This document shows, in pieces, positions 10,064 to 63,090 of a stretch of DNA of 64,000 bases. Location: positions 1,700,001-1,764,000 of the forward strand of contig NZ_JABXWB010000005.1 in the NCBI RefSeq assembly GCF_013375555.1. Reading direction: 5' to 3'. The notes under the pieces were generated by a model. It was not told the DNA's origin, did not search any database, and was given only the letters and a program-made list of their open reading frames with translations. The DNA comes from Sphingobium sp. EM0848 (GTDB lineage: Bacteria > Pseudomonadota > Alphaproteobacteria > Sphingomonadales > Sphingomonadaceae). A program made the translations under genes and the position numbers. Numbering within the stretch: position 1 is the first letter of the stretch; each line of letters opens with the position of its first letter.

Positions 10064-10110
10064 GACGCATTAAGATATATTCATGGCGGTTATATTGATG
10101 CTTTGCGTAA
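10064..10110 (-). promoter_or_regulatory. Candidate operator pair upstream of the beta-oxidation operon
   Basis: TGACGCATTAA at 10063-10073 and TTTGCGTAA at 10102-10110 are inverted relative to each other, about 30 bases apart, upstream of the MDR gene start at 9961. Read on the minus strand the distal copy is TTACGCAAAGCAT, and the identical 13 bases occur at 63023-63035 before the extradiol dioxygenase gene. The arrangement fits a dimeric regulator site; the regulator is not identified. Confidence 0.45.
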
Positions 10111-10149
10111 TTGCACCGCTTTGGTCCCCGATCCAAAGGGCAGAAAAGA

Positions 10150-10180
10150 AAATGCGCCGCAATCCGATTGCGACGCATTT
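10150..10180 (-). terminator. Rho-independent terminator after the SRPBCC gene
   Basis: AAATGCGCCGCAATC (10150-10164) pairs with GATTGCGACGCATTT (10166-10180) with one mismatch. On the minus strand the hairpin is followed by a T-rich tract (TTTTCTTTTCTG), the expected order for ending the minus-strand SRPBCC transcript whose stop is at 10203. Confidence 0.75.
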
Positions 10181-10202
10181 CCACCTTCTTATTCTCGCTC
10201 GA

Positions 10203-10715
10203 TCAGGCGCCCTTGTGCATCGCCTCCGCTCGTGCCTTCAGCGCCTTGGCCGTATCGTTGAAGGCGCGCGTCACCCATGGGCCGCAAAAGCGCATGACAT
10301 GAATGCCATTGGGACCGAAAAAGGCATCGGTGGACTGGTATCGACATTTCTCGGGCCCCAATTCTTCGATCATCTGGTCCCGCCGTGCGGGATAGGGCCA
10401 GACTTCATTGTCGAGAAGTTCCCAAGACAATAATCGCCCCGGCTCGAACGCGCAGACATATTCGCAATTGGGCGCCAGCGCGCCGGGATTGGCATAGTCG
10501 ACCAGACGCATTTCGACCGCCGCGCCCATTTCCAGCGTCGATTGCGCCCACACGCAGAACGGATTCCATTCGCCATAGCGCGGCAGGTCCGTCAGGATTT
10601 CCCATACCAGCATGGCCGGCGCGTCGATCTCTATCGGATCGGACGCGACCAGCGTCTCAGGATCATAGACTGCAAACGGATCGTGGCGCTCCACGGTCAC
10701 ACTTTCAGACGGCAT
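10203..10715 (-). CDS. SRPBCC (START/polyketide-cyclase-like) domain protein
   Basis: 170 residues with a typical SRPBCC opening, IEIDAPAMLVWEILTDLPRY then GEWNPFC, and RLLSWELL in mid-protein. The fold forms a hydrophobic ligand cavity; the specific role (ligand binding, lyase or cyclase) is not deducible. Start ATG at 10715 is chosen for the AAAGGAG about 5 bases upstream; the longer frame to 10820 lacks a ribosome site. It is divergent from the TonB receptor gene across 339 bases and ends at a strong terminator, so it is probably monocistronic. A role in handling a hydrophobic catabolic intermediate is only inference from neighbours. Confidence 0.72.
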   Translation of the reverse strand: MPSESVTVERHDPFAVYDPETLVASDPIEIDAPAMLVWEILTDLPRYGEWNPFCVWAQSTLEMGAAVEMRLVDYANPGALAPNCEYVCAFEPGRLLSWELLDNEVWPYPARRDQMIEELGPEKCRYQSTDAFFGPNGIHVMRFCGPWVTRAFNDTAKALKARAEAMHKGA

Positions 10716-10859
10716 CAGCTTCTCCTTTGGCAAATTTTTCAAGTTCCCAATCGGCGGCAGAGAAAATGGCTTCACATTCGCATTGCCGGATGCGTTTCGC
10801 CCATATCCCATCACCGCCATATATTATCCGAAGATGATAGAGCAAAAACCCATAAATTG

Positions 10860-10907
10860 CTACGCATATTGACAATATAGTCATCTTAAAGCATTATATT
10901 GCGTCAT
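10860..10907 (+). promoter_or_regulatory. Promoter with flanking TACGCA/TGCGT sites before the TonB receptor
   Basis: In the 339-base gap 10716-11054 a likely promoter is TTGACA (10869-10874), a 17-base spacer, then CATTAT (10892-10897). It is bracketed by CTACGCATAT (10860-10869) and ATATTGCGTCA (10897-10907), two inverted copies of the recurrent motif, one overlapping each hexamer; this geometry suits repression. The rest of the gap is moderately AT-rich and shows no other gene. Confidence 0.5.
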
Positions 10908-11054
10908 CATTATGGAATTTTGACAGGCTTTGTGTCGCCGCAATCCGACGATCCACAGTTCAAGCTTGGAAATTTTAGAGACATTCGTCCGGCCGCCGTG
11001 GGGATGACGGACGGCCGGTTCGAAGAACTGAAAAATCAATAAGGGGGGAAATTC

Positions 11055-14376: not shown

Positions 14377-14400
14377 TTGCGTATAAATTTTGCGCATTCC
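14377..14400 (+). promoter_or_regulatory. TTGCGTATAA motif upstream of the SDR gene
   Basis: TTGCGTATAA (14377-14386) and TTTTGCGCATTCC just after it lie 30-53 bases before the SDR start at 14430, with a TTGAAT hexamer at 14372. This is a weaker copy of the motif found before other catabolic operons. Confidence 0.35.
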
Positions 14401-15296: not shown

Positions 15297-15403
15297 GGAA
15301 AACGATAATCTCACGATATCGACAGAAGAAAGGCTGGTGATGCGCAGCCCGAGATGGCATTTTCAACGCAACAGGACAAATAAGCGGAGAGGATGGCAGG
15401 GCG

Positions 15404-16432
15404 ATGCAACTCGCGCGCGTGCACGGTCCAGGTGATGTTCGGCTGGATGAGATGGAGATGCCGCTTGCTGGCGCAGGGGATGTGGTCGTCAGGGTTGCCG
15501 CCTGCGGAATTTGCGGCAGCGATCTCAGCTATATAGCTCAGGGCGGGTTGGGCGGTGTCGAGCCACTTAGCAAACCATTACCCATTGGTCATGAATTTGC
15601 CGGGACGGTGGTTGCCCTGGGTCCCGGCGTCGAGGATATCGACGTCGGAATGCGGGTCGCGGTCAACCCCGACCATGGCTTTATCGGCGGTGGCGGACCG
15701 GACGGCGCGATGGCGCCCTTCATCCGGGTAAGCGGCGCACGCATCGGCGAAACCCTTTTTCCCCTGCCCGATCATGTCGACTTCGCGCAGGCGGCGCTGG
15801 CGGAACCGCTGTCGGTGGGCCTCCACGCGCTGAAGCGGATGAAGGTTCGGCCGCAGGATAAGGTCGCGATATTGGGTGCGGGGCCGATCGGCCTTTGCAC
15901 CGTGGCCATGCTGCGCCATCTGGGTGTTACCGACATCGCGATATTCGACCGGGTGGAAAGCCGGCTAGAACGCGCCCGCGCGCTGGGCGCGACGCTGGCC
16001 TGTAACGTTATGGCGGAGCGAATGACGGACGCGCTTGCCCGCACTCATGGCAGCGGGGATCGCTTCGGCGCCCCCTATGTCGGCACAGATGTGTTCATCG
16101 ACGCAGCCGGCGCTCCAGCCGCGCTGACCGAAGCGTTCGGCATCGCCAAATATCGCGCCCGCATCGCCATCGTCGCGCTCTATAAGAAGCCGGTCGCCAT
16201 TGACCTGTGGCGTATGATGGCGAACGAAATATTGATGAGCGGTTCCATCGCCATCGACCGCTCCGCCGAATTTGGTGAGGCGCTGGCGATGATTGCGGCG
16301 GGTGAGCAGGATCTGGCGCCGCTCATCAGCCACCAATTCGATTTCAACGACTTCCACACGGCTTTGGCCATGGCATCCGATGCCGATCGATCGGCCAAGG
16401 TCATGCTGAGATTTGCAGAGGAGCCCGCATGA
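15404..16432 (+). CDS. Zinc-dependent medium-chain alcohol dehydrogenase (MDR)
   Basis: 342 residues. Catalytic-zinc ligands are visible as C34 or C37 in ACGICGSD and H63/E64 in GHEFAG. The four-cysteine structural-zinc loop normally following is absent (the region reads NPDHGFIGGGG), so only one zinc is predicted. Rossmann motif ILGAGPIGLCTVAML lies near 152-166. Family members oxidise secondary alcohols or polyols with NAD(P). It is the first gene of an eight-gene operon and overlaps the sulfotransferase gene by 4 bases (ATGA). The substrate is unknown. Confidence 0.86.
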   Translation: MQLARVHGPGDVRLDEMEMPLAGAGDVVVRVAACGICGSDLSYIAQGGLGGVEPLSKPLPIGHEFAGTVVALGPGVEDIDVGMRVAVNPDHGFIGGGGPDGAMAPFIRVSGARIGETLFPLPDHVDFAQAALAEPLSVGLHALKRMKVRPQDKVAILGAGPIGLCTVAMLRHLGVTDIAIFDRVESRLERARALGATLACNVMAERMTDALARTHGSGDRFGAPYVGTDVFIDAAGAPAALTEAFGIAKYRARIAIVALYKKPVAIDLWRMMANEILMSGSIAIDRSAEFGEALAMIAAGEQDLAPLISHQFDFNDFHTALAMASDADRSAKVMLRFAEEPA

Positions 16433-17688
16433 GCGCGCCGCAAGACATCATCATCGACGATCTGGCGCAACCGCGCCTCACCCCCGCCATCATCGCCGCC
16501 CGACAGGGTCCAGCGGATTTCGACGAGAATATGGGCGTCGATGAAATCCTGTCCCGCGCCCGTGCCATGACCGGAGGCCTTAGCGACTTTGGCGAGGATA
16601 CGGGTTTTCGCGAACGTCTGGCCGTCGTGCTGCAATCACTGGCGGAGGATGTGGGGCTGACGCGCGGCGGACGCATCACGATCATCGACCATGCCATCCG
16701 TGTGATGGCGAACCGACTACGCATCGAAGATCTGGTGAAACGCCATCCGGAAATCCTCGACATCGAAATCGAAAAACCGCTCATCATCGCCGGGCTGCCG
16801 CGTTCGGGCACGACCCATCTGGTCAACTGGCTGGCGCGCGACGAAAGGCTGCGTTCGCTCACCCTCTGGGAATCGGAGGAACCCGTCCCCAGCGCGCCGC
16901 CGCCCGAGCCGGGAGAACCCGACCCACGCGCGCTGCGCAGCGCCGAATTCTGGGGCCATTTTGAATCCATGCTGCCGCACATGGCGGCGATGCACGGCAT
17001 GGATGCCGCATCGATCCATGAGGACAATGAACTGCTCTACATGGATATCAACTGCTATAGCTGGGAATTCCAGACGCGCATCCCGCGCTGGATCGATCAT
17101 TATTTCGCGCATGATCGTACCCCAAGCTATCTGTACGAAAAAAAGGTGCTTCAGGTTCTGACCTGGTTCCGGGGGCCGAACCGCTGGATTCTGAAATCGC
17201 CACAGCATATGGAAAATCTGGAGGCCCTGAAGGCGGCCTTTCCCGATGCAACGCTGGTCATCACCCACCGCGACCCGGTGGCGGTGCTGCGTTCGTTGAC
17301 CACCATGCTGGGCTATTCGGACCGTATCCGCCGTGATCCGACCGATCCGCCGGGTCTGGCCCGGCACTGGATCGACCGGATCGAGCGGCTGCTGCGCGCC
17401 TGCATTGAGCAGCGTTCAGCGTGGGGGCCGGAGCAGTCGATCGACATATTGTTCCACGAATATATGACCGATCAGGAAGGCATGATGCGACGCGTCTATG
17501 ATCTGGCGGGCCTGCCGTTGACGCCTGAGGCCGAACACGCGTTGCTGGGCTATCTCGACGAAAATCCGCGCCATGCGCTGGGCCGCGTAATCTACGATCT
17601 GGAGGGGGTTTTCGGCGTGGACGTAGCCGCTCTTCGGGATCGTTTCGCTTTTTATTACAACCGATTCCCTGTCAAGCTGGAGAACTGA
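16429..17688 (+). CDS. Sulfotransferase family protein (Sulfotransfer_3 type)
   Basis: 419 residues. PAPS 5'-phosphosulfate loop IAGLPRSGTTH near residues 120-130; 3'-phosphate-binding segment LVITHRDPVAVLRS near 275-288; an R-rich LARHWIDRIERLL helix follows. The roughly 100-residue N-terminal extension before the P-loop is usual for this bacterial branch. The reaction would be sulfate transfer from PAPS to a hydroxyl. A sulfotransferase inside a catabolic-looking operon is unusual: it could activate a hydroxyl as a leaving group, tag an exported product, or the fold may be used for another chemistry. It is overlapped with the dehydrogenase upstream and 1 base from the DUF1214 gene. Confidence 0.82.
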   Translation: MSAPQDIIIDDLAQPRLTPAIIAARQGPADFDENMGVDEILSRARAMTGGLSDFGEDTGFRERLAVVLQSLAEDVGLTRGGRITIIDHAIRVMANRLRIEDLVKRHPEILDIEIEKPLIIAGLPRSGTTHLVNWLARDERLRSLTLWESEEPVPSAPPPEPGEPDPRALRSAEFWGHFESMLPHMAAMHGMDAASIHEDNELLYMDINCYSWEFQTRIPRWIDHYFAHDRTPSYLYEKKVLQVLTWFRGPNRWILKSPQHMENLEALKAAFPDATLVITHRDPVAVLRSLTTMLGYSDRIRRDPTDPPGLARHWIDRIERLLRACIEQRSAWGPEQSIDILFHEYMTDQEGMMRRVYDLAGLPLTPEAEHALLGYLDENPRHALGRVIYDLEGVFGVDVAALRDRFAFYYNRFPVKLEN

Positions 17689-17689
17689 C

Positions 17690-18922
17690 ATGAAGGCTGA
17701 TGGTAAGGCAGCAGAACGCCTGCTCTCCGGCGCGGCATGGGACGATTTCTGCGACACGCTGAAGGTCGCGGGCCGGATGATCGATCAGTTCGGCGACCAG
17801 CCGTCCGATCTCGACCGCGCCGAATGGTACCGCTTCCTGACGCGCCTCACCCGCTCGGGCTGCGAGCGGCTGATCGAAAATGCCGAGCCGACCCGGCCCC
17901 GGCTGCGCGACATGGTCTGGCGGCAGTCGATCAATTTCCAGACGGTCGATCAGGACCATCTGATGTGCCAGTTCGATGAGGCGCGCGATTACCGCATTAC
18001 CGGAACCCGCGGCACCATCCCCTATTTCGTGATGGCGGTGCTGACCGCTCCGGCCCCCGAATATCCGGGCGCGCGTGACTGGGCACCGCTAGGCGTGGAG
18101 GGCCTGACGCAGTTCGACCCTTCCAACCTCAAGACGACCGGCTTCCTCGCCAGCCAGCAACTCATCATCGCCGATGATGGCACGTTCGAGATCATCCTGT
18201 CGCAGAACGATCCGGGGCCGGGCAAGAACTGGCTGAAACTGGCCCCCGACACCAACTGCATCCTCATCCGTCTGGTCTGGAGCGACCGTTCCAGCCAGAC
18301 TGCGCCCGCCATGACCATCGAACGGATGGACGGCGTCGCACCGGAACCGATCACGCCCGCGCTGATGGCGAACAATCTTGCTTGGGCGGCGCAGGGCGTG
18401 CTCGGTTACGCTGAACTGGTGCGCAACTGGTGGCAGGGCAATCAGGGCAATTTTTCCGCCAAACTCAATCGGCTCGATTACAGCCGCGCGCAATATCTTT
18501 CCAATGGCGGCGTGCCCGACCGCCACGTCGCCTTCGGCGGCTGGCAGAAAGGCATGAAAGAGGCGCTGGTGCTGGAATTCACGCCGCCGCCCTGCGAATA
18601 TTGGAACTTCCAGATCTGCAACATCTGGCAGGAAAATCTGGACACGTTCGAGGACGGCAATGGCTGGGTGAACAACAGCCGTTTCGTTGCAGAGCCCGAT
18701 GGCCGCGTCCGCATCGTCATCGCCGAACGCGATCCCGGCGCGGGCGGCAATTGGGTCAACAGCTTCGGTCATGACAAGGGCCAATGGGGTCTGCGCTTCG
18801 TCCAGACGCAGGTAACGCCACCCGTCAAGCTGTGGCGGCTGCCGCTCGAACGGCTGGAGCGGGAGGGGGCGACAGCGCTCGATCCGGCGCAGGCGGTCGA
18901 CACCGGCCAGTTTGTGGACTGA
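17690..18922 (+). CDS. DUF1214-domain protein of unknown function
   Basis: 410 residues, no signal peptide. The C-terminal half has the DUF1214 pattern: YWNFQICNIWQENLDT, GWVNNSRFVAEPDGRVR, then VIAERDPGAGGNWVN. A related motif appears earlier (GTFEIILSQNDPGPGKNWLK), suggesting an internal duplication of a beta-rich unit near residues 160-190 and 335-370. The repeated DPGxGxNW element is the most conserved-looking feature. Ribosome site GGAG before ATG 17690. The function is not known; proteins of this kind are often found next to sulfotransferase-fold genes in actinobacteria and sphingomonads, and here they are translationally adjacent. Confidence 0.72.
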   Translation: MKADGKAAERLLSGAAWDDFCDTLKVAGRMIDQFGDQPSDLDRAEWYRFLTRLTRSGCERLIENAEPTRPRLRDMVWRQSINFQTVDQDHLMCQFDEARDYRITGTRGTIPYFVMAVLTAPAPEYPGARDWAPLGVEGLTQFDPSNLKTTGFLASQQLIIADDGTFEIILSQNDPGPGKNWLKLAPDTNCILIRLVWSDRSSQTAPAMTIERMDGVAPEPITPALMANNLAWAAQGVLGYAELVRNWWQGNQGNFSAKLNRLDYSRAQYLSNGGVPDRHVAFGGWQKGMKEALVLEFTPPPCEYWNFQICNIWQENLDTFEDGNGWVNNSRFVAEPDGRVRIVIAERDPGAGGNWVNSFGHDKGQWGLRFVQTQVTPPVKLWRLPLERLEREGATALDPAQAVDTGQFVD

Positions 18923-18926
18923 CGCC

Positions 18927-19340
18927 ATGGCTGTCCGCTCGCTTGACCATGTGAACATCCGGACCGCCGATGTGCCGGGCACCGCAGCCTTCTTCCGCGA
19001 CATATTGGGACTGGAGGCAAGGATCGCACCGGGCGCGGACCATATCGACAGGGGCTGCTGGATTCATGATCCGGATGGACACCCGATCATCCATATCGGC
19101 CCGCTGGACGGCCGCTATCCGAGCGACGACATGCACCCCTTCATCCCCGCGCGGGGCAGCGGCACCGTGCACCATGTCGCGTTGGAATGCGATGATCTGG
19201 ACGACATGATCGAGCGCATCGGCGCAACGGGACGGGCCTTCATCCGCAAGGATTACCCGCCCGCCAAGCTGACCCAGATCTTCGTTATGGAGGAGAACGG
19301 CATCCTCCTTGAACTGAATTTCCACATGGAGGCCCACTGA
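18927..19340 (+). CDS. VOC-family (glyoxalase/dioxygenase fold) protein
   Basis: 137 residues, a single VOC unit pair. Candidate metal ligands are H8 (SLDHVNI), the HH pair of GTVHHVALE and a glutamate in ILLELNF near the C terminus. Start ATG 18927 is preferred over the GTG at 18912, which lies inside the preceding gene. The last base of its stop is the first base of the next start (TGATG). Could be an isomerase, epimerase, lyase or extradiol-type enzyme; length and ligands do not decide. Confidence 0.75.
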   Translation: MAVRSLDHVNIRTADVPGTAAFFRDILGLEARIAPGADHIDRGCWIHDPDGHPIIHIGPLDGRYPSDDMHPFIPARGSGTVHHVALECDDLDDMIERIGATGRAFIRKDYPPAKLTQIFVMEENGILLELNFHMEAH

Positions 19341-20194
19341 TGCTGTCCACCCAGTTCGGCCTTGCCGCGCCACCCTTCAGCCATGTGCCATTGCTCGACC
19401 GGCTTGCCCCGGCGCGGGATGCGGGATTCAGCGGCCTGTCCCTGATGCCTCGCGATGTCTGGGCACTGGAGGCGGAGGGTATGCACGCCGCCGAAATCCG
19501 CACCCGTTTTGCGGATCAGGGGCTGCGCGTCATGGAGATGGATTGCATCGCCTGCTGGCTACCCTCGCACAGGAGCGTTGGCGACGATGTTCCTATGGCC
19601 GCGCTGTTGCGGACACTGACGCCTGAACGGGTGATCGAAACGGCTGCGCGGATGGACGCGCCGTCGATCACGGTCGTCGAGATGATGGGCGTCATACCTT
19701 CCCTGGACGAAGCGGCTGAAGCCTTCGCCCAGCTATGCGACATGGCGGCGGATCAAGGGTTGAAAGCGCATATCGAATTCCTGCCTTTCGGCGGGATTCC
19801 AGCGCTCGACCGGGCTTGGGCTATCGTGCAGGCGGCAGGCAGGTCCAATGGCGGCCTGTTGCTCGACAGTTGGCATTTCTTTCGCAGCGGGTCGTCGCTG
19901 GAACTGCTCGCCTCCATTCCGGGAACGCGCATCCTGAGCGTGCAGATCAACGACGCGCCCGCGCAACCGGGCAAGGACCTGCTGCATGAAACCATGACCA
20001 GGCGGCTGGTGCCGGGCGAAGGCGATCTGGACCTGACCGGCTTTGTCCGTGCGCTGGATGCAACCGGCTGCACCGCTTCCGTTTCCGTTGAAATCTTCTC
20101 GGCAGAGACGTCATCGCAACCCATGGCAGAGACCATCCGGCACTGGGCCGGAGCGACGCGCGCCATCATCGACAGGGCAAGGGATCAAGTATGA
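19340..20194 (+). CDS. Sugar-phosphate-isomerase/epimerase-like TIM-barrel protein
   Basis: 284 residues of the xylose-isomerase-like TIM-barrel superfamily. Landmarks: ITVVEMMG, HIEFLPFGGIP (metal-site glutamate), LLLDSWHFFRSGSS (D and H), VQINDAP, RRLVPGEGDLD and VSVEIFSAE. The DSWHFFR motif is also found in IolE/IolI-like and plant-metabolite-processing members. It is coupled on both sides by 1- and 4-base overlaps, with a Gfo/Idh/MocA gene immediately after. That pair is the core of known C- and O-glycoside 3-oxidation/elimination systems, though the partner small subunit of those systems is not seen. Confidence 0.75.
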   Translation: MLSTQFGLAAPPFSHVPLLDRLAPARDAGFSGLSLMPRDVWALEAEGMHAAEIRTRFADQGLRVMEMDCIACWLPSHRSVGDDVPMAALLRTLTPERVIETAARMDAPSITVVEMMGVIPSLDEAAEAFAQLCDMAADQGLKAHIEFLPFGGIPALDRAWAIVQAAGRSNGGLLLDSWHFFRSGSSLELLASIPGTRILSVQINDAPAQPGKDLLHETMTRRLVPGEGDLDLTGFVRALDATGCTASVSVEIFSAETSSQPMAETIRHWAGATRAIIDRARDQV

Positions 20195-21315
20195 GCAATG
20201 AAAGGCAACCCATAGGCGCCGTTGTGGTGGGGACGGGCTTTGGCCTGTTCACCCACGTTCGCGCGTTACGCGACGCCGGTATCGAAGTGCGCGCTATCGT
20301 GGGCCGTGATCGCCAGCGGACGGTCGAACGCGCTGCGCCGCTGAACATTCCGGTGGCGTCCGATGATCTGGAACAGGTACTGGCGGATGATCCGGCAATC
20401 CGGCTGGTGACGGTCGCAACCCCACCCCACGCCCATTATCGCCCCGTCATGCAAGCCATCGCCGCCGGACGTGCAGTGATGTGCGAAAAGCCCTTCGCCA
20501 GGGATCTTTCCCAGGCGCGTGAAATGCTGGTTGCCGCCGAGCAGGCTGGCATCGTCCATGCGCTGGGTGCGGAATTCCGTTTCGACAGCGCGCAGGCATT
20601 GCTCCGCCGGGTGGTGAAGGAGGGGATGATCGGCGATCCGCTGATGTTCAGCCGCATCTATCAGCAGCCCGGCGGCAGCGGTGACGAGCCGCTGACCGAC
20701 TGGTGGACCGACGCGGAACAGGGCGGCGGATTCCTGGGCGCATTCGGGACGCATATGATTGATCAGGTGCGATCCACTGTTGGAGAGATTGTGGCGGTCA
20801 GCGCGATCCTGCGCACCTTGTCGGGCCGCCCCGGCATGACCTCCGACGATTATTATAATGTCCAGTTCGTCACGGAAACCGGCTGCCGCGGCGTGATAGA
20901 GGCGGCGCAATATTTCCCCGGCCCCTTCGTGATGGTGACCAAAGTCGCGGGCACCAGCGGCGCTGCCTGGATTCAGTCGGGCGCGGCCTTTGGCGACCCC
21001 GAACAGCTGTGGGTCAAAAATGCGGACGGCCAGCGTCAGATCGCCATGCCGCCCGAACTGGTGAACCCCGCGCCCGAACCCTTCGGCGTCGAGGCATTGA
21101 TCCAGACCGAGATGGACCGCTGGCACACGCAGGGCTTCGATGTCGCGCCCTATGCCAAGCTGTTCGCCCAGATGAAGGCGAAGATGGAAGGGCGCGCGCC
21201 GCCACTGCCAGATCCGGCAGGCGATTTCCGCGATGCCGCAGCCGGGCAGGCGGTGCTCGACGCGGCCCGCCGCTCCGCTGCTGAAGGACGCTGGGTGGAG
21301 GTTGAAAAGCCATGA
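20191..21315 (+). CDS. Gfo/Idh/MocA-family oxidoreductase
   Basis: 374 residues. N-terminal dinucleotide fold with VVVGTGFGLFTHVRAL (about 8-23) and the family lysine motif MCEKPFARDLSQA (about 97-109). The C-terminal domain carries GGGFLGAFGTHMIDQ with the catalytic-region histidine. Members oxidise or reduce sugars, inositols and related alcohols with tightly bound NAD(P). Overlaps neighbours by 4 bases each side (ATGA), so it belongs firmly to the operon. Together with the TIM-barrel protein before it and the SDR after it, an alcohol-oxidation then isomerisation or elimination sequence is plausible. Confidence 0.84.
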   Translation: MSNERQPIGAVVVGTGFGLFTHVRALRDAGIEVRAIVGRDRQRTVERAAPLNIPVASDDLEQVLADDPAIRLVTVATPPHAHYRPVMQAIAAGRAVMCEKPFARDLSQAREMLVAAEQAGIVHALGAEFRFDSAQALLRRVVKEGMIGDPLMFSRIYQQPGGSGDEPLTDWWTDAEQGGGFLGAFGTHMIDQVRSTVGEIVAVSAILRTLSGRPGMTSDDYYNVQFVTETGCRGVIEAAQYFPGPFVMVTKVAGTSGAAWIQSGAAFGDPEQLWVKNADGQRQIAMPPELVNPAPEPFGVEALIQTEMDRWHTQGFDVAPYAKLFAQMKAKMEGRAPPLPDPAGDFRDAAAGQAVLDAARRSAAEGRWVEVEKP

Positions 21316-22064
21316 GCAACATTCGTCATGATTATGCCGGCGCCCATGTACTGGTCACGGGCGGAACCGGCGGTATCGGCGGCGCGACGGCGGCAGCCTA
21401 TCGCGATGCCGGCGCGGAGGTCACCATCACCGGCACGCGCGGCAGCGCCGCCGATTATGATGCGGATCTTGGCGGCTATCGCTATCTTCGCATGGATATG
21501 GAGGACGGCGCCAGCATCGACGCGGTGGCCGCCGCCCTTCCCCGGCTCGATATCCTCGTCAACAATGCCGGGATGGCGCTGCCCAGTATCGGCCTTGACG
21601 AATATGAACCGGATGTCTTTGCGCGCTCGGTCAACATGCTGCTCATAGGTGCCTTCCGCATGGCCCGTCGGACGGTCGATCTGCTCTCGCAGAGCCGGAT
21701 CGAGGGTGGAGCATCGGTCATCGGTATCGCCTCGATGAGCAGTTTCTTCGGTATCTCGCTCGTTCCGGGCTATGGTGCGGCGAAGACTGGCCTTGTCGGC
21801 CTGACGCGCACGCTGGCTGTGCAATGGGGACCGCGCAACGTTCGCGTCAATGCGGTCGCAGCCGGCCTTACCCGCAGCCACATGACGGCGGGCACCTTCG
21901 AGCAGGAGCAATGGACCGCGCCGACCATGGCGCGCACCCCGCTGGGGCGACTGGGCGAGCCGGAGGATATTGCGGGCGCCATCCTGTTTCTGACCAGCTC
22001 CGCCGCTGCCTGGATCACTGGCCAGACGCTGCCGGTCGATGGCGGCTACACGGTGTCGGGATAG
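21312..22064 (+). CDS. Short-chain dehydrogenase/reductase (SDR)
   Basis: 250 residues, classical SDR: TGGTGGIGGATAA near 15-27, NNAGM near 82, serine in IASMSSFFG and YGAAK as the catalytic YxxxK. Start overlaps the Gfo/Idh/MocA stop as ATGA. Ends with LPVDGGYTVSG. Predicted NAD(P)-dependent alcohol/ketone conversion in the same pathway as the other genes of the operon. Confidence 0.86.
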   Translation: MSNIRHDYAGAHVLVTGGTGGIGGATAAAYRDAGAEVTITGTRGSAADYDADLGGYRYLRMDMEDGASIDAVAAALPRLDILVNNAGMALPSIGLDEYEPDVFARSVNMLLIGAFRMARRTVDLLSQSRIEGGASVIGIASMSSFFGISLVPGYGAAKTGLVGLTRTLAVQWGPRNVRVNAVAAGLTRSHMTAGTFEQEQWTAPTMARTPLGRLGEPEDIAGAILFLTSSAAAWITGQTLPVDGGYTVSG

Positions 22065-40639: not shown

Positions 40640-40780
40640 GCGAGCTTCTTTTGCAAAGTCATGGCAGCTTCGGAAAGTGAATTTTTCGTAGTACATTGCG
40701 AGCAGAGTTGGGCGCCGTCCGAGCCGGACGCAACAGCAGGTTATTCATCTGCAAAATATCATTTTCATCTCATTATTGCG

Positions 40781-40793
40781 ATATAATGCGTAG
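40781..40793 (+). promoter_or_regulatory. ATATAATGCGTAG motif with -10-like TATAAT
   Basis: TATAAT at 40782-40787 looks like a -10 hexamer for the SDR at 40870, overlapped by ATGCGTAG, whose complement CTACGCAT matches copies at 10860 and 62913. A second ATTGCG lies just before. No good -35 is evident, consistent with an activator-dependent promoter. Confidence 0.4.
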
Positions 40794-51202: not shown

Positions 51203-51988
51203 TCAAGCCTTTCCGTAAGTGAAACTGGTTTCGCCGATGCCGCTGATGACGGCCCGGACATGATCGCCGGGGTGGAGCGCCACCATCGGTCCCAGCGCGC
51301 CGGCCAGCAGAATATCGCCTGCCTTAAGCGGTTCGCCACGCCGCGCGAGCGTCTGGGCCAGCCATGCAGCAGCGTTCAGCGGATTGCCCAGCACGGCGGC
51401 CCCCGCCCCCATGGATGCGGGTGAGCCGTTTATTTCCATCACCATGCCGCAGCTATAAAGGTCCAGCCCTTCGAGTGGCTTTCCCTCCCGCGCGAGGACG
51501 AAGAAGGCCGAGGAGCCATTGTCCGCGACCGTGTCGACGAAGGTGATCTTCCAGTCCGCGATGCGGCTGTCGACGATTTCGATGGACGCGTGCACGCTGG
51601 CGATCGCCTTCGCAACCATGGCGGGGGTAGTGTCGGGATCGGGCAGATCCGCGCCAAGAATGAAGGCGATTTCCGCTTCGGCCTTGGGCTGCAAGGCGCG
51701 TCCGGGGTCGAGCGTGCCGCCATCGGCAATGTGCATGTCGTCGAACAACACGCCGAAGTCCGGCTGGTCCACGCCCAGTTGCTGTTGGACCGCCTTGGCC
51801 GTTAACCCCGCCTTGCGCCCGACGATGCGACGCCCCTGCGCCTCCCAAAACCGCGTGTTGATCGTCTGGATCGCATAGGCGCTGTCGGCGTCGTCCGGCT
51901 CAAGCCCGTCGCGCATCGGCGGCACCGCGCCGCCGACATAGGCATCCCGCAATCGGCGGGCGAGGTCTTCATGATTGGGGGATTGCAT
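51203..51988 (-). CDS. 2-keto-4-pentenoate (2-hydroxypenta-2,4-dienoate) hydratase, copy 1
   Basis: 261 residues of the fumarylacetoacetase-like fold: [35 protein letters not shown] (metal-binding E-x-E), [13 protein letters not shown] and [17 protein letters not shown] [20 protein letters not shown]. Adds water to the dienoate to give 4-hydroxy-2-oxovalerate. ATG 51988 follows GAGGAG by about 8 bases; a GTG at 51997 is less likely. First gene of the hydratase-dehydrogenase-aldolase operon. Confidence 0.92.
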
Positions 51989-52064
51989 CGATTCCACTCC
52001 TCTTTTCCTTCGCCTGTTTTTAGGAAAGGTTGCCGCTTGGCACCAGACAGGCGACCTGCTATCT

Positions 52065-52079
52065 TCTCACAATATGAGA
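52065..52079. promoter_or_regulatory. Inverted repeat overlapping the iclR start
   Basis: TCTCACAATATGAGA at 52065-52079 is a palindrome with 5-base arms and contains the ATG of the IclR gene. In the 85-base gap between the regulator and the hydratase operon it is the best candidate operator for autoregulation. Confidence 0.4.
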
Positions 52080-52844
52080 GAAGGTACGCCGCAACTCAGT
52101 TCATTCAAACGCACTCTCGCCATGCTGGAAACCGTGGTGGACGATGGCGGGGTCAGCAATGTCGCGGAGATGGCGCGCAGGCTCGGCATCCCCGTGGCGA
52201 CAGCGCATCGTCAGATTGCGACGCTGGTGGCGGAAGATTATCTGCGCCCGCTGGGCAAGGGGCGCCATGTTGCCGGGTCGCGTCTGATGAAACTTGTGCA
52301 GCGGCTCGACGAAAAGCAGTTGATCGCCAATGTCGCGGCGCCAATCCTGCACCGTCTGGCGACACGGGTGCACAGTACCGTTCAATTGGGCACGCTTGAA
52401 AATGAAATGGTCACCTATCGTATCAAGACCGGACAAGGCGCCAATGCACTGTTCACCAAGGTCGGTATGCAATTGGAGGCCTATTGCTCGGGCATGGGTA
52501 AGGTTTTGCTTGCCTATCTTACGGATAAGGATAGGGAGGATTATCTGGCTGGTGGCCCCTTTGTTCCCCTGACGGATAGAACGATTACCGAACCCGCAGC
52601 TCTGGCCACCGAGCTATTCAAGGTAAAAGCGCAGGGATTTGCCATCGATGATGGCGAAATCGCCGATGACCTGCTCTGCATGGCCGTCCCTATTCGCAAT
52701 TCGATGCAGCAGGTCGTGGCGGCAATATCCGTTTCACAAGCCGGCACGGGGAAGAGGCGCATTACGGGCGACGCGTTACTGTCCATGCTCTTGCAGGCCG
52801 CCTCCGAGATCGAAGTAGAAGCGAGTGTCGGCACGGACCGTTAG
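52074..52844 (+). CDS. IclR-family transcriptional regulator
   Basis: 256 residues from ATG 52074. Winged HTH: VSNVAEMARRLGIPVATAHR and QIATLVAEDYLRPLGKGRH. The effector domain has YCSGMGKVLLAYL, the conserved GxxGKxxLA-like segment, and GFAIDDGEIADDLLCMAVPI. Divergent from meta-cleavage module 1, which is the usual arrangement for IclR activators of aromatic degradation; a direct regulatory link is inference. Not obviously tied to the TTGCGT-motif genes. Confidence 0.88.
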   Translation: MREGTPQLSSFKRTLAMLETVVDDGGVSNVAEMARRLGIPVATAHRQIATLVAEDYLRPLGKGRHVAGSRLMKLVQRLDEKQLIANVAAPILHRLATRVHSTVQLGTLENEMVTYRIKTGQGANALFTKVGMQLEAYCSGMGKVLLAYLTDKDREDYLAGGPFVPLTDRTITEPAALATELFKVKAQGFAIDDGEIADDLLCMAVPIRNSMQQVVAAISVSQAGTGKRRITGDALLSMLLQAASEIEVEASVGTDR

Positions 52845-57506: not shown

Positions 57507-58556
57507 TCAGGCGGTGGCCTCACGCTCCTTGAGCATATCAAGGGCAACGTCGACGATCATGTCCTCCTGACCGCCGACCATCTTGCGGCGGCCGAGTTCG
57601 ACCAGGATGGTGCGGGTATCGAGGCCGTAAGTCTCCGCCGCCTTTTCCGCGTGGCGCAGGAAGCTGGAATAGACGCCCGCATAGCCCAGAGCGAGGGTTT
57701 CGCGGTCGACGCGGACCGGGCGGTCCTGCAACGGACGAACCAGATCTTCGGCGGCGTCCATCAGCGCGTTGACGTCGCAGCCATGGTTCCAGCCCTTGCG
57801 GTCAGCGGCGGCGATGAACACTTCAAGCGGCGCATTGCCCGCACCCGCGCCCATGCCAGTCAGCGAAGCATCGATGCGCACAGCACCCTGCTGCGCCGCA
57901 ACGATCGAGTTGGCGACGCCCAGCGAGAGATTGTGGTGGGCGTGGATGCCGCGCTGGGTTTCGGGCTTCAGCACGCGGTCATAGGCCTCGAGCCGCGCCT
58001 TCACCCCGTCCATGTCGAGCGCGCCGCCGCTGTCGGTGACGTACACGCATTGGGCGCCGTAGCTTTCCATCAGCACGGCCTGCTCGGCGAGCTTTTCGGC
58101 GTCGATCATGTGGCTCATCATCAGGAAGCCGGACACGTCCATGCCAAGGTCACGGGCGATGCCGATATGCTGCTTGGAGACGTCAGCCTCGGTGCAGTGG
58201 GTCGCGACGCGAACCGATCGCACGCCGATATCATAGGCGCGCCTCAGTTCCTCGACCGTGCCCACGCCGGGCAGGATGAGGGTGGTGAGGACCGACCTGG
58301 TCAGCACCGAGGCAACCGCTTCCAGCCATTCCCAGTCGGTATGCGCGCCGAACCCATAGTTGAAGCTGGCGCCGTTGAGACCGTCGCCATGGGCCACTTC
58401 GATCGCGTCCACGCCGGCATCGTCCAGCGCCTTGGCGATCGCCTTCACATGGTCGATGCCATACATGTGGCGGATGGCGTGCATGCCATCGCGCAGGGTG
58501 ACGTCCTGGATGTAGAGCTTGTCGCCTGCCTCGACGTTGAACTTGGTGCTGCTCAT
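57507..58556 (-). CDS. dmpG: 4-hydroxy-2-oxovalerate aldolase, copy 2 (BphI/DmpG/HsaF family)
   Basis: 349 residues; same motifs as copy 1 ([42 protein letters not shown]) plus a 4-5 residue N-terminal addition and a short C-terminal KEREATA tail. Gene order hydratase, acylating dehydrogenase, aldolase is identical to module 1. Three bases separate it from the dehydrogenase stop. Converts the C5 hydroxy-keto acid to pyruvate and acetaldehyde, channelled to the partner dehydrogenase. Confidence 0.94.
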
Positions 58557-58559
58557 CTC

Positions 58560-59534
58560 TTAATTCTCCGTCTCGGCAAGCGAGCCGGTGGCCGCCACCT
58601 TCTTTCCTTCTGCAATGCGCTGCGCCAGCAGCTCGCCGGTCGCCTTGGCGGCGGCGGTCATGATATCGAGATTGCCCGAATAGCTGGGGAGGTAATCGCC
58701 CGCCCCTTCGACCTCGAGCAGGATCATCGTCTTGACGCCGGTGAACTCACCACGGCCGGGGATCTTCAGCTTGTTATTATCACCAAAGCGCTCGAACTGC
58801 ACTTCCTGCTTCAGGCGATAGCCGGGCACATAGGCCTGAACCTTCTTCACCATCGCCTCGACCGAGGCGCGAATGGTTTCCTCGTCGGCACCCTCGGAGA
58901 GGGTGAAAACCGTATCACGCATGATCATCGGCGGTTCGGCGGGGTTCAGGATGATGATCGCCTTGCCCTGCGCCGCGCCGCCAACCTTTTCGATAGCGCC
59001 AGCGGTTGTACGGGTGAACTCATCGATATTGGCACGGGTGCCGGGGCCTGCGGAACGCGAGGACACCGACGCCACGATCTCGGCATAATGGACGGTCGCG
59101 ACCTGGCTCACCGCAGCAACCATCGGGATCGTCGCCTGACCGCCGCAGGTCACCATGTTGACGTTTCCGGCATCGAGATTGGCTTCGCCATTGACGGTCG
59201 GGATGGTGTAAGGACCGATGGCGGCAGGGGTGAGGTCCACCACCTGCTTGCCGTCGGCGCGCAGCGCGGCGTCATGGACCTTGTGCGCATAGGCCGAGGT
59301 CGCGTCGAAGACGATCCCGATCTCAGGATAGACGTCCATCTTCTTCAGGCCTTCAATGCCTTCATGGGTCGTCGCAACGCCACGCTCGCGGGCCATGGCC
59401 AGGCCCTCGGAGGCTTCGTCGATGCCGACGACCGCCACCAGTTCCATATTCTGCGGATATTTGATCATTTTGATCATCAGGTCGGTGCCGATATTGCCCG
59501 ACCCGATGATCGCTGCCTTGACCTTGCCAGTCAT
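58560..59534 (-). CDS. Acetaldehyde dehydrogenase (acylating), copy 2
   Basis: 324 residues from ATG 59534 (GAGGAG about 7 bases upstream; the TTG-type longer start is unlikely). NAD motif [17 protein letters not shown], nucleophile [26 protein letters not shown]. The C-terminal tail ([15 protein letters not shown]) is about 15 residues longer than copy 1. Produces acetyl-CoA from acetaldehyde within the aldolase complex. Confidence 0.94.
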
Positions 59535-59545
59535 CTCATAACTCC

Positions 59546-60340
59546 TCAAACGAAGCGCGCGGTGCAGGCACCAACGCCATGCAGCTGCATTTCAAACACA
59601 TCGCCCGCCTTGGCAGGCTCCAGCGGCACAAGACTGCCCGACAGGATTACGTCACCTGCCTCCAGCGTCACGCCATAGGCGCCCAGCGTATTGGCGAGCC
59701 ACGCCACCGCCTCCGCCGGGGAACCCTGAACCGCGTGACCATAGCCTTCGGACAGCGGCTCACCATTTTTGGTCACGGTAACGTGGAGATTGGGGAGGTC
59801 GTGCTCACGTGGATCGGCGCGGGCCTCGCCCAGCACGTAGACGCCGCAGGAGGCGTTGTCCGCGACGGTATCGACAATGCCGATCTTCCAGTCCTGAATG
59901 CGGCTGTCGACGATTTCGAAACAGGGGACGATGGCCTCCGTCGCAGCGATCACTTGGCTCGCCGTAACGCCCGGCCCCTTCAGGCTGTCCTTCAGGATGA
60001 AGCCGATTTCAGCCTCGGCGCGGGGCTGGATCAGGCCATTGCCCGCGACATCGATATCGCCTTCCACGAACATCCGGTCGGTCAGGAAGCCGAAGTCGGG
60101 TTGATGCACGCCCAGCATGTCCTGCACCGCCTTCGAGGTGACGCCGATCTTCTTGCCGACGACGCGTTCGCCATCGGCCTTGCGCTTCTCCAGCGCGCCC
60201 AGCGAAATGGCATAGGCGTCATCGATGGTGAGCTGCGGATAACGGCCCATCAGCGGCGAAACCGTGCGCCCGTCACGCAGCGCGCGATAGAGTTCATCGG
60301 CCAGTGTATCGTTCAGGCTTTGGTCGGCGATGTCGCTCAC
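59546..60340 (-). CDS. 2-hydroxypenta-2,4-dienoate hydratase, copy 2
   Basis: 264 residues from GTG 60340, which overlaps the flavin reductase stop as GTGA and has GGAG about 10 bases upstream; the longer frame is read-through of that gene. [35 protein letters not shown] and [13 protein letters not shown] match the hydratase family. Here the substrate may be a longer-chain dienoate (as in HsaE-type enzymes), depending on the side chain left after ring cleavage. Confidence 0.92.
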
Positions 60341-60819
60341 AAATAGGCTCCATCCTGATAGATGAGAGGATCCACCGCGTCGCTGAGGCGTACCGCCTCC
60401 ACGCGCGCGATGACGATACTGTGCGTCCCGAAGGGTGTCATGCTGAAGATGGTGCAGGCCAGATTGGCCTGCGCCTCGTCCAGCATCGGCAGGTCGTGCC
60501 GGTCGGGCACCCACTGCCCCACCTCGAAACGCTTGTCCCGCGGCACAGCACCGCCGAAGGCGGCCGACACGTCCCGTTGGTGACGCGAAAGGATGTTAAC
60601 GCTGATCGGGCAACCTGGCGAGAGGCTGGGGTGAATGCCTGCCGACTGGTTGATGCACACCAGCACCGCAGGCGGCTCCACCGTCAGCGAGGTGATAGAG
60701 GTTGCCGCCATGCCGACCGGGCCCTCATCCCCCTTTGCCGTGATGATCGCGACGCCAGACGCCAGACGACGCATGGCCCCGCGAAAACCCATGGTAACAT
60801 CCTCTTGGGAAGCCGTCAT
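60337..60819 (-). CDS. Flavin reductase (HpaC/HsaB-like small component)
   Basis: About 160 residues from ATG 60819. FRGAMRRLASGVAIITA opens the split-barrel flavin-binding domain, with MAATSITSLTVEPPAVLVCI and the SVNILSRHQ segment, then GTHSIVIARVEAV. Supplies reduced flavin to the HsaA-type oxygenase encoded two genes upstream. Start is uncertain: ATG 60837 lies in the hydrolase tail, and ATG 60792 has the best ribosome-like site (AGAGGA, 7 bases upstream). Confidence 0.88.
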   Translation of the reverse strand: MTASQEDVTMGFRGAMRRLASGVAIITAKGDEGPVGMAATSITSLTVEPPAVLVCINQSAGIHPSLSPGCPISVNILSRHQRDVSAAFGGAVPRDKRFEVGQWVPDRHDLPMLDEAQANLACTIFSMTPFGTHSIVIARVEAVRLSDAVDPLIYQDGAYL

Positions 60820-60829
60820 GACAGCTGCG

Positions 60830-61645
60830 CTAGCCATGGAGGAATTCAAGCGAGTAGCGGTTGAACTCATCGGCTCGCTCCACCTGCACCCAATGGCCGA
60901 CCTTATTGAAGGTCACACAGCGCACGTCCGGGCAGGCTTCGAAGAAGAGATTGATGCCCTCCAGCGGCATGAAGCGCTCATTATAGCCCCAGAAAAGCTG
61001 GATCGGCATTTTGAGTTCGCCAAGGCGCGGCGCCAGATTGGGCGTGCGCATCCGTACAATGACGTCCTTGGGCTGGGTCCGGGCAACGGCGAAGCGTTCC
61101 TTGACCAGCGCATCGGTGACATGGACCGGATCATATACCAGATTGGTGATGAGGCGGCGCTGTTCCTCTTCGTTGAAGTCCGGACCGCCAAAGGAACTGA
61201 CCATGCCGGCGATGCCCGGCATCTTGAAATATTCCTCCCGCTCATGGATGCAGCCCGGCGCCATCAGGATCAGCCGGTCGACGAACTCCGGATGATCCAT
61301 CGCCATCTGGATCGCGATGCCGCCGCCCAGCGAATTACCGATCAGGGTCGCCTTTTCGATGCCATGAGCGACCAGCGCTTCGTAGAGGGTGTTGGTGAAC
61401 AGATCGAGCGTATAATCGATCCCTTCCGGCTTCGATGAAGCGCCATAGCCGATCAGGTCGGGCAGGATGACGCGGAAACCGCCGTCCACGAAAGCCTGCA
61501 CATTCTGCCGGAAATTGGACTGGCCCGACGCGCCCGGACCGCTGCCGTGGATGAACACCACGGCGGGGCCGGAGCCGGCTTCCGCAACCACGATGTCATG
61601 GTCACCCGAAACGCGATAGGTCTTGCTGATGATATCGTTCGCCAT
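60830..61645 (-). CDS. Meta-cleavage product hydrolase (BphD/HsaD/MhpC family)
   Basis: 271 residues. FIHGSGPGASG (32-42) and nucleophile S105 in IGNSLGGG are typical of C-C bond hydrolases; the base is H251 in VGHWVQVE. At the acid position the usual GRDDR motif reads GYNER (220-224), so glutamate E223 replaces the catalytic aspartate. Hydrolyses the ring-cleaved dienone to a dienoate and an acid. Located right after the HsaA-like oxygenase gene (11-base gap). Confidence 0.9.
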   Translation of the reverse strand: MANDIISKTYRVSGDHDIVVAEAGSGPAVVFIHGSGPGASGQSNFRQNVQAFVDGGFRVILPDLIGYGASSKPEGIDYTLDLFTNTLYEALVAHGIEKATLIGNSLGGGIAIQMAMDHPEFVDRLILMAPGCIHEREEYFKMPGIAGMVSSFGGPDFNEEEQRRLITNLVYDPVHVTDALVKERFAVARTQPKDVIVRMRTPNLAPRLGELKMPIQLFWGYNERFMPLEGINLFFEACPDVRCVTFNKVGHWVQVERADEFNRYSLEFLHG

Positions 61646-61656
61646 CCCGTGTCTCC

Positions 61657-62874
61657 TCAGATGAAGGTGAAGGCCGGCGACTCGCCGAGCATCGTCCCGA
61701 CCACATCGCTGGTGCGATTGGCGGGGTCGTTGGCGACGTGCGCGCGGGCGGCGTGCAGGTCGAGCCAGGGTTGGAGGATCGGGCTGGACATATAGACCGC
61801 CCGGCCGCCCAGCAGCTTCACCATATCGTCGACAAGATCCGCCAGACGGCGCACAACGCTGGCCGACTGATAGGCGAAGAGCGCGCGCCGTTCCATCGGG
61901 ATCGCTTCATTGCGCTCCGCATAATCCATCAGTTCGTTGAAGGTCGTGCGATGCGTGAGGTCCATTTCGCTGGTTTCCGCGATCGCGCGGGCAATGGCGG
62001 CGTGCAGGTTCGGGTCTGCCTTCGACGCCTTGCCGGTATTGGTCGACACGCGGCTCTGCATGATCTCGATCGCGGCGTTGATCGCGTTCCGCGCGCCGCC
62101 GAAGGCTGCGGACGACACCGAGCGGGTGAACAGCTGCGCCCAGGGCATGCGATAGAGTGGGCCGGTATTGGCTTCCTGCCCCGGATTCTTGCAGGCAAAA
62201 CCATCAGCGGCGCGATGGGTGCGATGTTCGGGGACGAACACGCGCTCGACGAGGATGTCGAAGCTGCCGGTGCCCTGAAGGCCGAAAACGTCCCACGTCC
62301 CTTCGATCACCTGATAGTCGGAGCGGGGAAGCAGGAAGGTGCGCATGTCGGGCGGACCGCCATCGGTGTCGAAGTTGATCGCACCCAGCAATACCCAGCC
62401 GCAATGGGTCGATCCGGAGGAGAAGCCCCAGCGCCCGGACAGGTAGAATCCGCCCTCAACCTTCTCCACCTTGCCGACCGGCTGATAGGTGGACGACACC
62501 AGCATGTCGGGATTATCGCCCCAGACTTCCTTCTGCGCCTCGTCATGGAACAGCGCCAGCTCATAGGGATGACAGCCCAGCACGCCGTAGATCCAGCCGG
62601 TGGACATGCAGCCTTCCGCCAAAGCCTTCTGTACTTCGAAGAAGACATTGGGATGCATTTCATAGCCGCCGTAGCGCTTAGGCTGCAGAATGCGGAAGAA
62701 ACCCGCCTCCTTCATTTCCTCCACGCTTTCCTTGGGCACGTCATGACCCAGGGTGCAGGCCCGCGCCCGTTCGCGCAGGATGGGAATCATGGCCTTCGCC
62801 TTTGCGATCAGGCTTTCAGCTGACGGCACCCCTGCATCCGCCTCGCCGGACGGTCTTGCTATTGCCCCGGTCAT
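61657..62874 (-). CDS. HsaA-like flavin-dependent monooxygenase (acyl-CoA-dehydrogenase fold, group D)
   Basis: 405 residues, acyl-CoA dehydrogenase fold but with the two-component hydroxylase pattern: FFRILQPKRYGGYE, CMSTGWIYGVLGCHPYELAL, SGRWGFSSGSTHCGWVLLGA, DTWDVFGLQGTGS-like GTWDVFGLQGTGSFD, and no catalytic glutamate of dehydrogenases. These enzymes ortho-hydroxylate a phenol using reduced flavin, e.g. 3-HSA in steroid breakdown. ATG 62874 follows GGAGAAG; the TTG start is less likely. First gene of the operon ending at 55714. Steroid, or another phenolic, cannot be decided. Confidence 0.88.
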   Translation of the reverse strand: MTGAIARPSGEADAGVPSAESLIAKAKAMIPILRERARACTLGHDVPKESVEEMKEAGFFRILQPKRYGGYEMHPNVFFEVQKALAEGCMSTGWIYGVLGCHPYELALFHDEAQKEVWGDNPDMLVSSTYQPVGKVEKVEGGFYLSGRWGFSSGSTHCGWVLLGAINFDTDGGPPDMRTFLLPRSDYQVIEGTWDVFGLQGTGSFDILVERVFVPEHRTHRAADGFACKNPGQEANTGPLYRMPWAQLFTRSVSSAAFGGARNAINAAIEIMQSRVSTNTGKASKADPNLHAAIARAIAETSEMDLTHRTTFNELMDYAERNEAIPMERRALFAYQSASVVRRLADLVDDMVKLLGGRAVYMSSPILQPWLDLHAARAHVANDPANRTSDVVGTMLGESPAFTFI

Positions 62875-62912
62875 TATCTTCTCCAATTCGGACGACTCAT
62901 GTAAAATTCGCT

Positions 62913-62954
62913 ATATGCGTAGCCGATATAATTTGTTATTACGCAAACTGTCAA
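62913..62954 (-). promoter_or_regulatory. Promoter and operator pair of the HsaA-headed operon
   Basis: On the minus strand: TTGACA (62949-62954), 17-base spacer, TTATAT (62926-62931). The spacer contains TTTGCGTAA (complement of 62939-62947) and the copy CTACGCATAT (complement of 62913-62922) lies just after the -10. The two sites are inverted relative to each other, as at the TonB receptor promoter, where CTACGCATAT also occurs. Confidence 0.6.
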
Positions 62955-63022
62955 GGCAAAGAGGGCTTGCGCATTTTGCTCGATGCTTATAGGCCGATCT
63001 GGAACGAATTGCCATAAGCGCG

Positions 63023-63090
63023 TTACGCAAAGCATATCGAAGCATCATATTCATGGAATGGGATGCATGGTATCGATAGGAATTGCGTAA
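63023..63090 (+). promoter_or_regulatory. Inverted TTACGCAA...TTGCGTAA pair before the extradiol dioxygenase
   Basis: TTACGCAA (63023-63030) and TTGCGTAA (63083-63090) form a perfect inverted pair 52 bases apart, the second ending 78 bases before the dioxygenase start. With the two copies on the other side this divergent 294-base gap carries four sites. No clear sigma-70 hexamers are visible for the plus strand. Confidence 0.55.

Follow-up and report, generated by a model that had tools for sequence, protein, structure and literature searches.

The stretch analysed here is a 64,000-nucleotide window from Sphingobium sp. EM0848. It lies on contig C5 (1.86 Mb), one of the five contigs of a genome of 5.64 Mb; positions are those of the window unless another stretch is named. 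Sphingomonads belong to the bacteria of soil and water that break down steroid hormones and bile acids, and most genes of the window encode catabolic enzymes; it also holds genes for TonB receptors and regulators and a pair of HsaEFG-like meta-cleavage modules (49252-51997 and 57507-60514). The operon of the second module begins with hsaA, encoding a monooxygenase of the acyl-CoA dehydrogenase fold. The subjects of this study are a short word, WTGCGTA, that recurs upstream of genes in the window, the spaced operator to which it belongs, and a tandem pair of Lrp/AsnC genes, AsnC1 and AsnC2, as its candidate reader. Genes were assigned as hsaA or AsnC by similarity, and those in the fetched stretches were called by a simple caller whose start codons may be off. 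An Rfam scan of the window gave nothing at gathering scores.

The first-pass annotation of the window had listed copies of TTGCGTMA by position. All of them are present, with coordinates right to within 1-2 bases, and the repeated longer words TTACGCAAAGCAT and CTACGCATAT were found as claimed. The 8-mer itself fails at two copies, which read TTGCGTAT (14377) and ATGCGTAG (40786). TTGCGTMA occurs 7 times in the window versus 2.9 expected from whole-window shuffles, 1/100 of which reached 7. Six copies lie in noncoding DNA, where dinucleotide shuffles of the noncoding segments give 0.39 (0/400 reach 6); none falls within a single gene, and the seventh copy (27314) straddles the junction of two genes. 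The wider word WTGCGTA has 8 noncoding copies versus 1.07 expected, and 2 coding ones. The genome-wide count proposed as a check went the other way: TTGCGTAA occurs 59 times in 5.64 Mb, on all five contigs, which is below the 87 copies of the reversed control. The word alone is therefore uninformative, whereas the spacing of two words is informative, and the 8-mer was dropped as a genome-wide marker.

Judged from sequence comparison, the motif is a real half-site (WTGCGTA) of a spaced operator. At the hsaA promoter two half-sites face each other across 18 bp (N18). Taking the 300 bases before hsaA and a score of at least 12 of 14, the inverted pair WTGCGTA-N18-TACGMAW was found at 99/109 loci, namely 74/80 named relatives and 25/29 further loci, with a few genomes in both sets. 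The spaced pair is thus kept at orthologous promoters, where the annotation had suggested looking for a footprint. The named relatives are the best 80 of 88 hsaA loci, and the closest hsaA among them is that of Sphingobium estronivorans AXB (96%). When gaps of 8 to 30 were compared, the runner-up gap occurred at no more than 8 of the 109 loci. Consistently, 163 of 174 convergent pairs have a gap of 18 when gaps of 15-23 are scanned in the window, the 80 named and 30 further loci, a set with redundant loci; once near-duplicates are removed, the 18-bp gap (25 bp start to start) accounts for 29 of the 63 convergent pairs that lie within 220 bp. In the named relatives, TTGA stands a few bases before TTGCGTA in 74/80 hsaA upstream regions and TTGAC in 72/80, and after TTGCGTA the regions usually carry TACGMA in the opposite orientation. 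A logo from 110 non-redundant of 281 sites (score at least 13) shows WTGCGTA and an AT-rich gap of 36% GC. A TGCGCA word at 62967-62974, 27-28 bp from the hsaA half-site, is also conserved in the Sphingobium relatives L031, L032, L359 and L361.

The operator was then compared with hsaA across 298 Sphingomonadaceae genomes. An HsaA match at E<=1e-80 was present in 47; in 36 of these, from 21 genera, a match reached 64% identity or more and the genome was taken as hsaA-positive, and the 11 with only more distant paralogues were counted as hsaA-negative. The perfect operator WTGCGTA-N18-TACGCAW occurs in 31/298 genomes, which are 30 of the 36 hsaA-positive and 1 of the 262 hsaA-negative ones (G090). 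The reversed control motif occurs in 12 genomes, 2 of them hsaA-positive. Fisher's p for operator versus hsaA is 4e-34, against 0.44 for the reversed control, both uncorrected for relatedness. It is hardly credible that the motif is a functionless AT-rich promoter word produced by chance or base composition. The 8-mer lacks genome-wide enrichment and the loosest N18 class in this genome equals its reversed control, which would agree with such an origin; the exact spacing, the hsaA footprint and the profile of the perfect motif in the 298 genomes, with its flat reversed control, contradict it.

The placement of the sites was also examined. In 77-96 kb around hsaA, sites scoring at least 12 number 10 in G050, 11 in G269, 7 in G295, 8 in G218 and 6 in G033, and 58-kb stretches of G261 and G161 hold 1 and 4. 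Nearly all of them lie between genes; the exceptions in G033 are one site that overlaps the end of AsnC2 and one that crosses a called open reading frame. On a 40-kb stretch of the Novosphingobium aromaticivorans plasmid pNL2, where hsaA has an N18 pair, 6/6 sites are intergenic. Overall, 254 of 257 sites scoring at least 12.5 are intergenic, in a biased choice of loci of which many were selected by motif or by hsaA, so the motif is not as frequent inside genes as between them, a possibility that the annotation had raised. In the Sphingobium sp. EM0848 genome there are nine N18 sites with 0-1 mismatch, 8 of them intergenic and 7 on C5 (the reversed control covers the class of up to two mismatches as a whole). 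Their neighbours include TonB receptors, SDRs, an acyl-CoA ligase and an extradiol dioxygenase next to the hsaA paralogue at C5:1152786. A degenerate pattern with two mismatches was discarded as too loose, with 422 hits in this genome versus 327 for the control among the matches listed. The features of the window are collected in Table 1.

Table 1. Half-site pairs and associated features in the window (strand "." for unstranded features).
Feature	Position	Strand	Basis
hsaA-like monooxygenase, first gene of second meta-cleavage operon	61657..62874	-	similarity
Convergent operator ATGCGTA-N18-TACGCAA at hsaA promoter	62915..62946	.	perfect match; N18 pair at 99/109 hsaA loci
hsaA promoter-like hexamers: -35 TTGACA 62949-62954, 17 bp, -10 TTATAT 62926-62931	62926..62954	-	by eye
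Divergent half-sites TACGCAA-N52-TTGCGTA upstream of extradiol dioxygenase (hsaC), 59 bp start to start	63024..63089	.	spacing scan
Divergent operator TACGCAT-N31-TTGCGTC, TonB receptor promoter	10861..10905	.	N31 pairs scoring at least 11.5 of 14 in 5/11 other orthologues
Divergent half-sites GACGCAT-N32-TTGCGTA before beta-oxidation operon	10064..10109	.	spacing scan
Divergent half-sites GACGCAA-N52-ATGCGTA (59 bp) before SDR gene at 40870	40727..40792	.	spacing scan
Weak convergent pair ATGCGCA-N18-AACGCAA before ADH/sulfotransferase operon	15340..15371	.	12 of 14, two mismatches
Lone half-site TTGCGTA before SDR gene at 14430	14377..14383	+	no correctly spaced partner

The copies at the TonB receptor and the beta-oxidation operon have no N18 partner and form divergent pairs instead. 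In this genome the pattern ACGCAW-N28..36-WTGCGT occurs 9 times versus 3 in the control, 4 times with N31 and twice with N32. For the TonB receptor, 11 other orthologues (48-82% identity in the first aligned segment) were compared over 350 bp upstream. A divergent N31 pair scoring at least 11.5 is present in five (L336, L338, L339, L340 and L342) and an N18 pair in three (L340, L342 and L343); neither was found in L333 (the closest, same genus), L334, L335, L337 and L341. Among spacings of 20-70 bp, a divergent distance of 38 bp is found in 5/11 of these regions and any other in at most 2. The 59-bp pair of hsaC recurs with one mismatch in S. estronivorans (L031) and is missing from Sphingobium sp. 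Chol11 (L032). A lone half, TTGCGTC, lies at 15287, 53 bp upstream of the weak pair at 15340, and the lone copy at 14377 is probably not an operator. Comparative support for the beta-oxidation, SDR (40870) and sulfotransferase sites is weak or absent. The claim that the motif precedes six or seven catabolic units thus holds strongly at hsaA and well at the TonB receptor, and is weak at 14377, at 15287/15340 and at the beta-oxidation operon.

The half-sites tend toward separations of whole helical turns, with modest statistics. With near-duplicates removed, the commonest start-to-start distance is 38-39 bp for divergent pairs (8/53) and 63-64 bp for direct pairs (7/79), the best period for direct pairs being 10.5 bp (approximate p 0.005, Rayleigh). 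The distances add up to whole turns: 25+38 = 63 bp is 6 turns and 25+59 = 84 bp is 8 turns, and a distance of 168 bp, or 16 turns, separates the half-sites of the window at 62915 and 63083. The direct 63-bp peak follows partly from triple arrays and therefore is not independent evidence, and convergent pairs outside 25 bp gave no clear 10.5-bp period.

Two cases had been described in which copies bracket or overlap promoter hexamers. The promoters of hsaA and the TonB receptor were read by eye. At hsaA one half-site lies in the -35/-10 spacer and the other immediately past the -10 hexamer; at the TonB receptor the halves bracket TTGACA (10869-10874)-N17-CATTAT (10892-10897). TTGAC stands at one of three offsets from the site start in 24 of the 110 non-redundant sites: -8 (13 sites, mostly hsaA promoters), 14 (5 sites) and 36 (6 sites), which are separated by 22-bp steps. 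In the -8 and 14 classes the promoter boxes fall within the pair or next to it, consistent with repression. From site end to start codon the median distance is 90 bp (160 starts). The recognisable promoter boxes, lying mostly between or among the halves, suggest repression.

Tandem Lrp/AsnC genes lie in the G050 cluster, and related genes occupy corresponding positions in G269, G295, G218 and G033. Both G050 proteins carry an HTH_AsnC-type helix-turn-helix (PF13404, E 1.1e-13 and 9.3e-15) and a C-terminal AsnC_trans_reg (RAM) ligand-binding domain (PF01037, E 1.1e-12 and 1e-10), and the two paralogues share 27% identity. By sequence, the matches of AsnC1 among solved structures include the Lrp/AsnC proteins 2p5v, 2cg4 (AsnC) and 2gqq (Lrp). 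At E<=1e-25, AsnC1 was found in 35/36 hsaA-positive and 0/262 hsaA-negative genomes, and the remaining hsaA-positive genome (G296) carries a tandem pair that has diverged (38% and 28%) and narrowly misses the threshold. At the same threshold AsnC2 was found in 29 genomes, all hsaA-positive, in each of which its best match directly follows AsnC1. The Sphingobium sp. EM0848 genome has AsnC pairs at C5:1374064-1375004 and C5:1327155-1328077, on the replicon of the window but beyond its limits; one operator closely follows the first pair (C5:1375052) and another precedes the second (C5:1326941).

The sites are also linked to these genes. An N18 site lies within 1.5 kb at 19/30 AsnC1 and 21/30 AsnC2 loci, which overlap as the genes are tandem, versus 5/30 loci of an XRE-type and 1/15 of an AraC-family regulator. 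In seven Sphingopyxis-type loci the operator is upstream of AsnC1. The N. aromaticivorans pNL2 pair (SARO_RS19400-19395) has a degenerate triple of half-sites upstream, divergent 38 and then convergent 25. Caulobacter sp. Root343 has an AsnC pair near hsaA, and a site follows its AsnC2 at 231 bp; a pair is also close to hsaA in a genome that carries the label Azospirillum sp. 412522. Within flanks of at most 10 kb, an AsnC1/AsnC2-like gene (E<=1e-10) is present at 26/80 named loci, which span Sphingopyxis, Sphingobium, Novosphingobium, Sphingomonas, Rhizorhabdus, Caulobacter, the Azospirillum label and others. In Sphingobium sp. TomMM15 a single AsnC1-like gene (L359:14124-14594) stands beside the hsa operon, and the tandem pair is elsewhere on the same replicon (L363).

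The main competitor as reader is the XRE-type protein, with a Cro/CI helix-turn-helix domain and, by eye, an apparent second winged helix; the AsnC pair would then be merely a co-regulated passenger. Its homologues (E<=1e-15) occur in 29/298 genomes, 28 of them hsaA-positive, which weighs against the AsnC pair, and the homologue in this genome (C5:1795254-1795934) is about 32 kb from hsaA. However, XRE was not found in 8 hsaA-positive genomes, of which 7 have a perfect N18 site (G033, G056, G116, G135, G161, G218 and G261), nor in the 77-kb regions examined in G218 and G033 despite their 8 and 6 sites. Few XRE loci (5/30) have a site nearby. In four genomes of one genus an N18 site lies just upstream of the XRE gene and looks autoregulatory, but a divergent AsnC2-like gene shares this site. 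At these loci (L224, L225, L226 and L229) the AsnC2-like gene is solitary and the one N18 operator lies between the two genes. The XRE protein is thus an unlikely reader, and as sole regulator it was given up, being missing from the site-bearing G218 and G033 stretches while AsnC1 tracks hsaA better. A further XRE-type gene, linked to steroid genes, was seen at L209:9753-10493. A phylogenetic profile cannot split a regulator from a co-regulated gene; linkage, the gaps in XRE and taxonomic spread favour the AsnC pair.

An AraC-family regulator (C5:1378280-1379284, PF12625 and HTH_18), of which one monomer would bind each inverted half, was the first candidate. Its own upstream region has a weak N18 site (12 of 14), its homologues at E<=1e-50 occur in hsaA-positive genomes exclusively (7/199 genomes), and a passage in PMC12882949 mentions an AraC gene in the Chol11 and Caenibius steroid clusters. 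Homologues were not found at that threshold in most motif-bearing genomes, and a site scoring at least 12.5 is present at 1/15 AraC loci, a cut-off that its own site does not reach. This candidate was given up and is very improbable. The regulators of the window (TetR 25367, response regulator 36070, CRP 45368, LysR 47611 and IclR 51975) were dropped because they have no paired promoter site at scan thresholds, on this ground only. Another regulator, encoded away from the steroid clusters, might read the operator with the AsnC pair as a target; the screen of operator-linked genes used eight regulator families and Pfam covered 20 selected cluster genes, which leaves some room for it. Such a protein would have to match the near-exact co-occurrence of AsnC1 and hsaA, and operators adjoin AsnC genes in many genomes, which makes it quite unlikely.

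These results suggest that the WTGCGTA operator family likely controls aerobic steroid degradation in sphingomonads and is read by the tandem AsnC1-AsnC2 (probability about 0.72). Several observations weigh against this. The hsaA-positive genomes G057, G084, G174, G220, G230 and G253 have no perfect operator; N18 sites with up to two mismatches number 28 in this genome versus 29 in the reversed control, so that only the nine with 0-1 mismatch stand out; the beta-oxidation pair is not preserved in the two relatives inspected; and the 6/110 sites at offset 36 have the N18 pair upstream of TTGAC, an activator-like arrangement, some of them with a further half-site after the TTGAC box (by eye). 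Seven hsaA-positive genomes have no AsnC2 at E<=1e-25, AsnC1 identity is just 34-40% in several genomes while unrelated Lrp proteins of 26-34% occur in the hsaA-negative G090 and G163 at looser E, and no AsnC gene lies within the flanks (at most 10 kb) of 54/80 named loci, including the two closest. No site was found upstream of the first AsnC pair of this genome or of the TomMM15 pair. Finally, the 25-bp spacing exceeds the sites of about 15 bp usual for one Lrp dimer.

AsnC binding, the ligand and the sign of regulation are inferred. AsnC1/AsnC2 dimers or larger assemblies would sit on phased half-sites spread across the promoter and in this state keep RNA polymerase off. Release would follow when a steroid or a CoA-bound breakdown product occupies the AsnC ligand domain, and the two proteins would also control their own genes. 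A more speculative extension, possible but doubtful, is that the paralogues form an obligate mixed assembly wrapping promoter DNA on half-sites phased in 25-, 38- and 59-bp steps that sum to whole turns. It would be a nucleosome-like steroid sensor and the master repressor of steroid degradation in sphingomonads and some other alphaproteobacteria.

The annotation had proposed one regulator tying the units together over 50 kb. A single system is likely for most units, given the 99/109 hsaA footprint, and its range is wider than 50 kb, extending across the second replicon. The point that only the second meta-cleavage module is tied in stands: the first, beside an IclR-type gene (51975-52844), has no paired sites at scan thresholds. 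Elsewhere in the window, 15404-22494 holds a run of ADH, sulfotransferase-like, DUF1214, glyoxalase-fold, TIM-barrel, GFO/IDH/MocA, SDR and lipocalin-like genes, and 26139-31963 a glycosyltransferase, DUF2141 and DUF2334 group with apparently no relation to steroid genes. With an operator defined and a candidate pair named, steroid regulation becomes testable. The two would also allow regulon prediction for unknown steroid genes, such as TonB receptors, SDRs and sulfotransferase-like genes, and could serve steroid biosensors.

No report of this operator was found in searches of one open-access library, and a passage in PMC8399759 describes regulation in bile acid-degrading proteobacteria as largely unknown. 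For N. tardaugens, passages of PMC6895838 report no TeiR homologue and no regulatory gene near the SD cluster. Two contiguous Lrp/AsnC genes (NCHOL11_RS15865/15860) are described in the steroid cluster of Sphingobium sp. Chol11, in passages of PMC12882949 that refer to amino acid metabolism and give no operator, regulon or test for them. Likened by description rather than sequence, this pair is probably of the same kind as AsnC1-AsnC2. The AsnC passages of PMC6498646 concern other pathways, and AsnC goes unmentioned in PMC12239570.

Among known steroid regulators, EdcR of Caenibius tardaugens is described in part of PMC8700777 as a TetR-family, estradiol-responsive repressor of the edc cluster, whose proposed operator TnnCnnTACnAnTnGTAnnGnnA overlaps the -10 box. 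It resembles the system proposed here as a repressor of steroid genes in a sphingomonad but differs, as far as that account goes, in protein family and operator, and TnnCnnTACnAnTnGTAnnGnnA has 0 matches in the window at up to 2 mismatches. Comamonas TeiR/TesR (LuxR type) and HsdR (LysR type), positive regulators of steroid degradation according to passages of PMC8399759 and PMC8700777, likewise control this metabolism in a proteobacterium, but as activators from other families. The actinobacterial KstR and KstR2 regulate cholesterol degradation (passage in PMC8700777). Both are TetR proteins, another family than Lrp/AsnC. The KstR regulon includes hsa genes, and the KstR operators are not known to resemble the sphingomonad operator. 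Escherichia coli Lrp has the 15-bp consensus YAGHAWATTWTDCTR, which the half-site WTGCGTA does not resemble; in the window YAGHAWATTWTDCTR has 2 matches at up to 2 mismatches where chance predicts 1.5, and neither coincides with a site. A gap fixed at 18 bp, with phasing close to whole turns, would be an uncommon layout for an Lrp/AsnC operator. Multiple phased sites and autoregulation are known in the Lrp/AsnC family, consistent with the candidates, which have its AsnC-type helix-turn-helix and AsnC ligand-binding domain; the difference is that here two tandem paralogues are tied to steroid genes.

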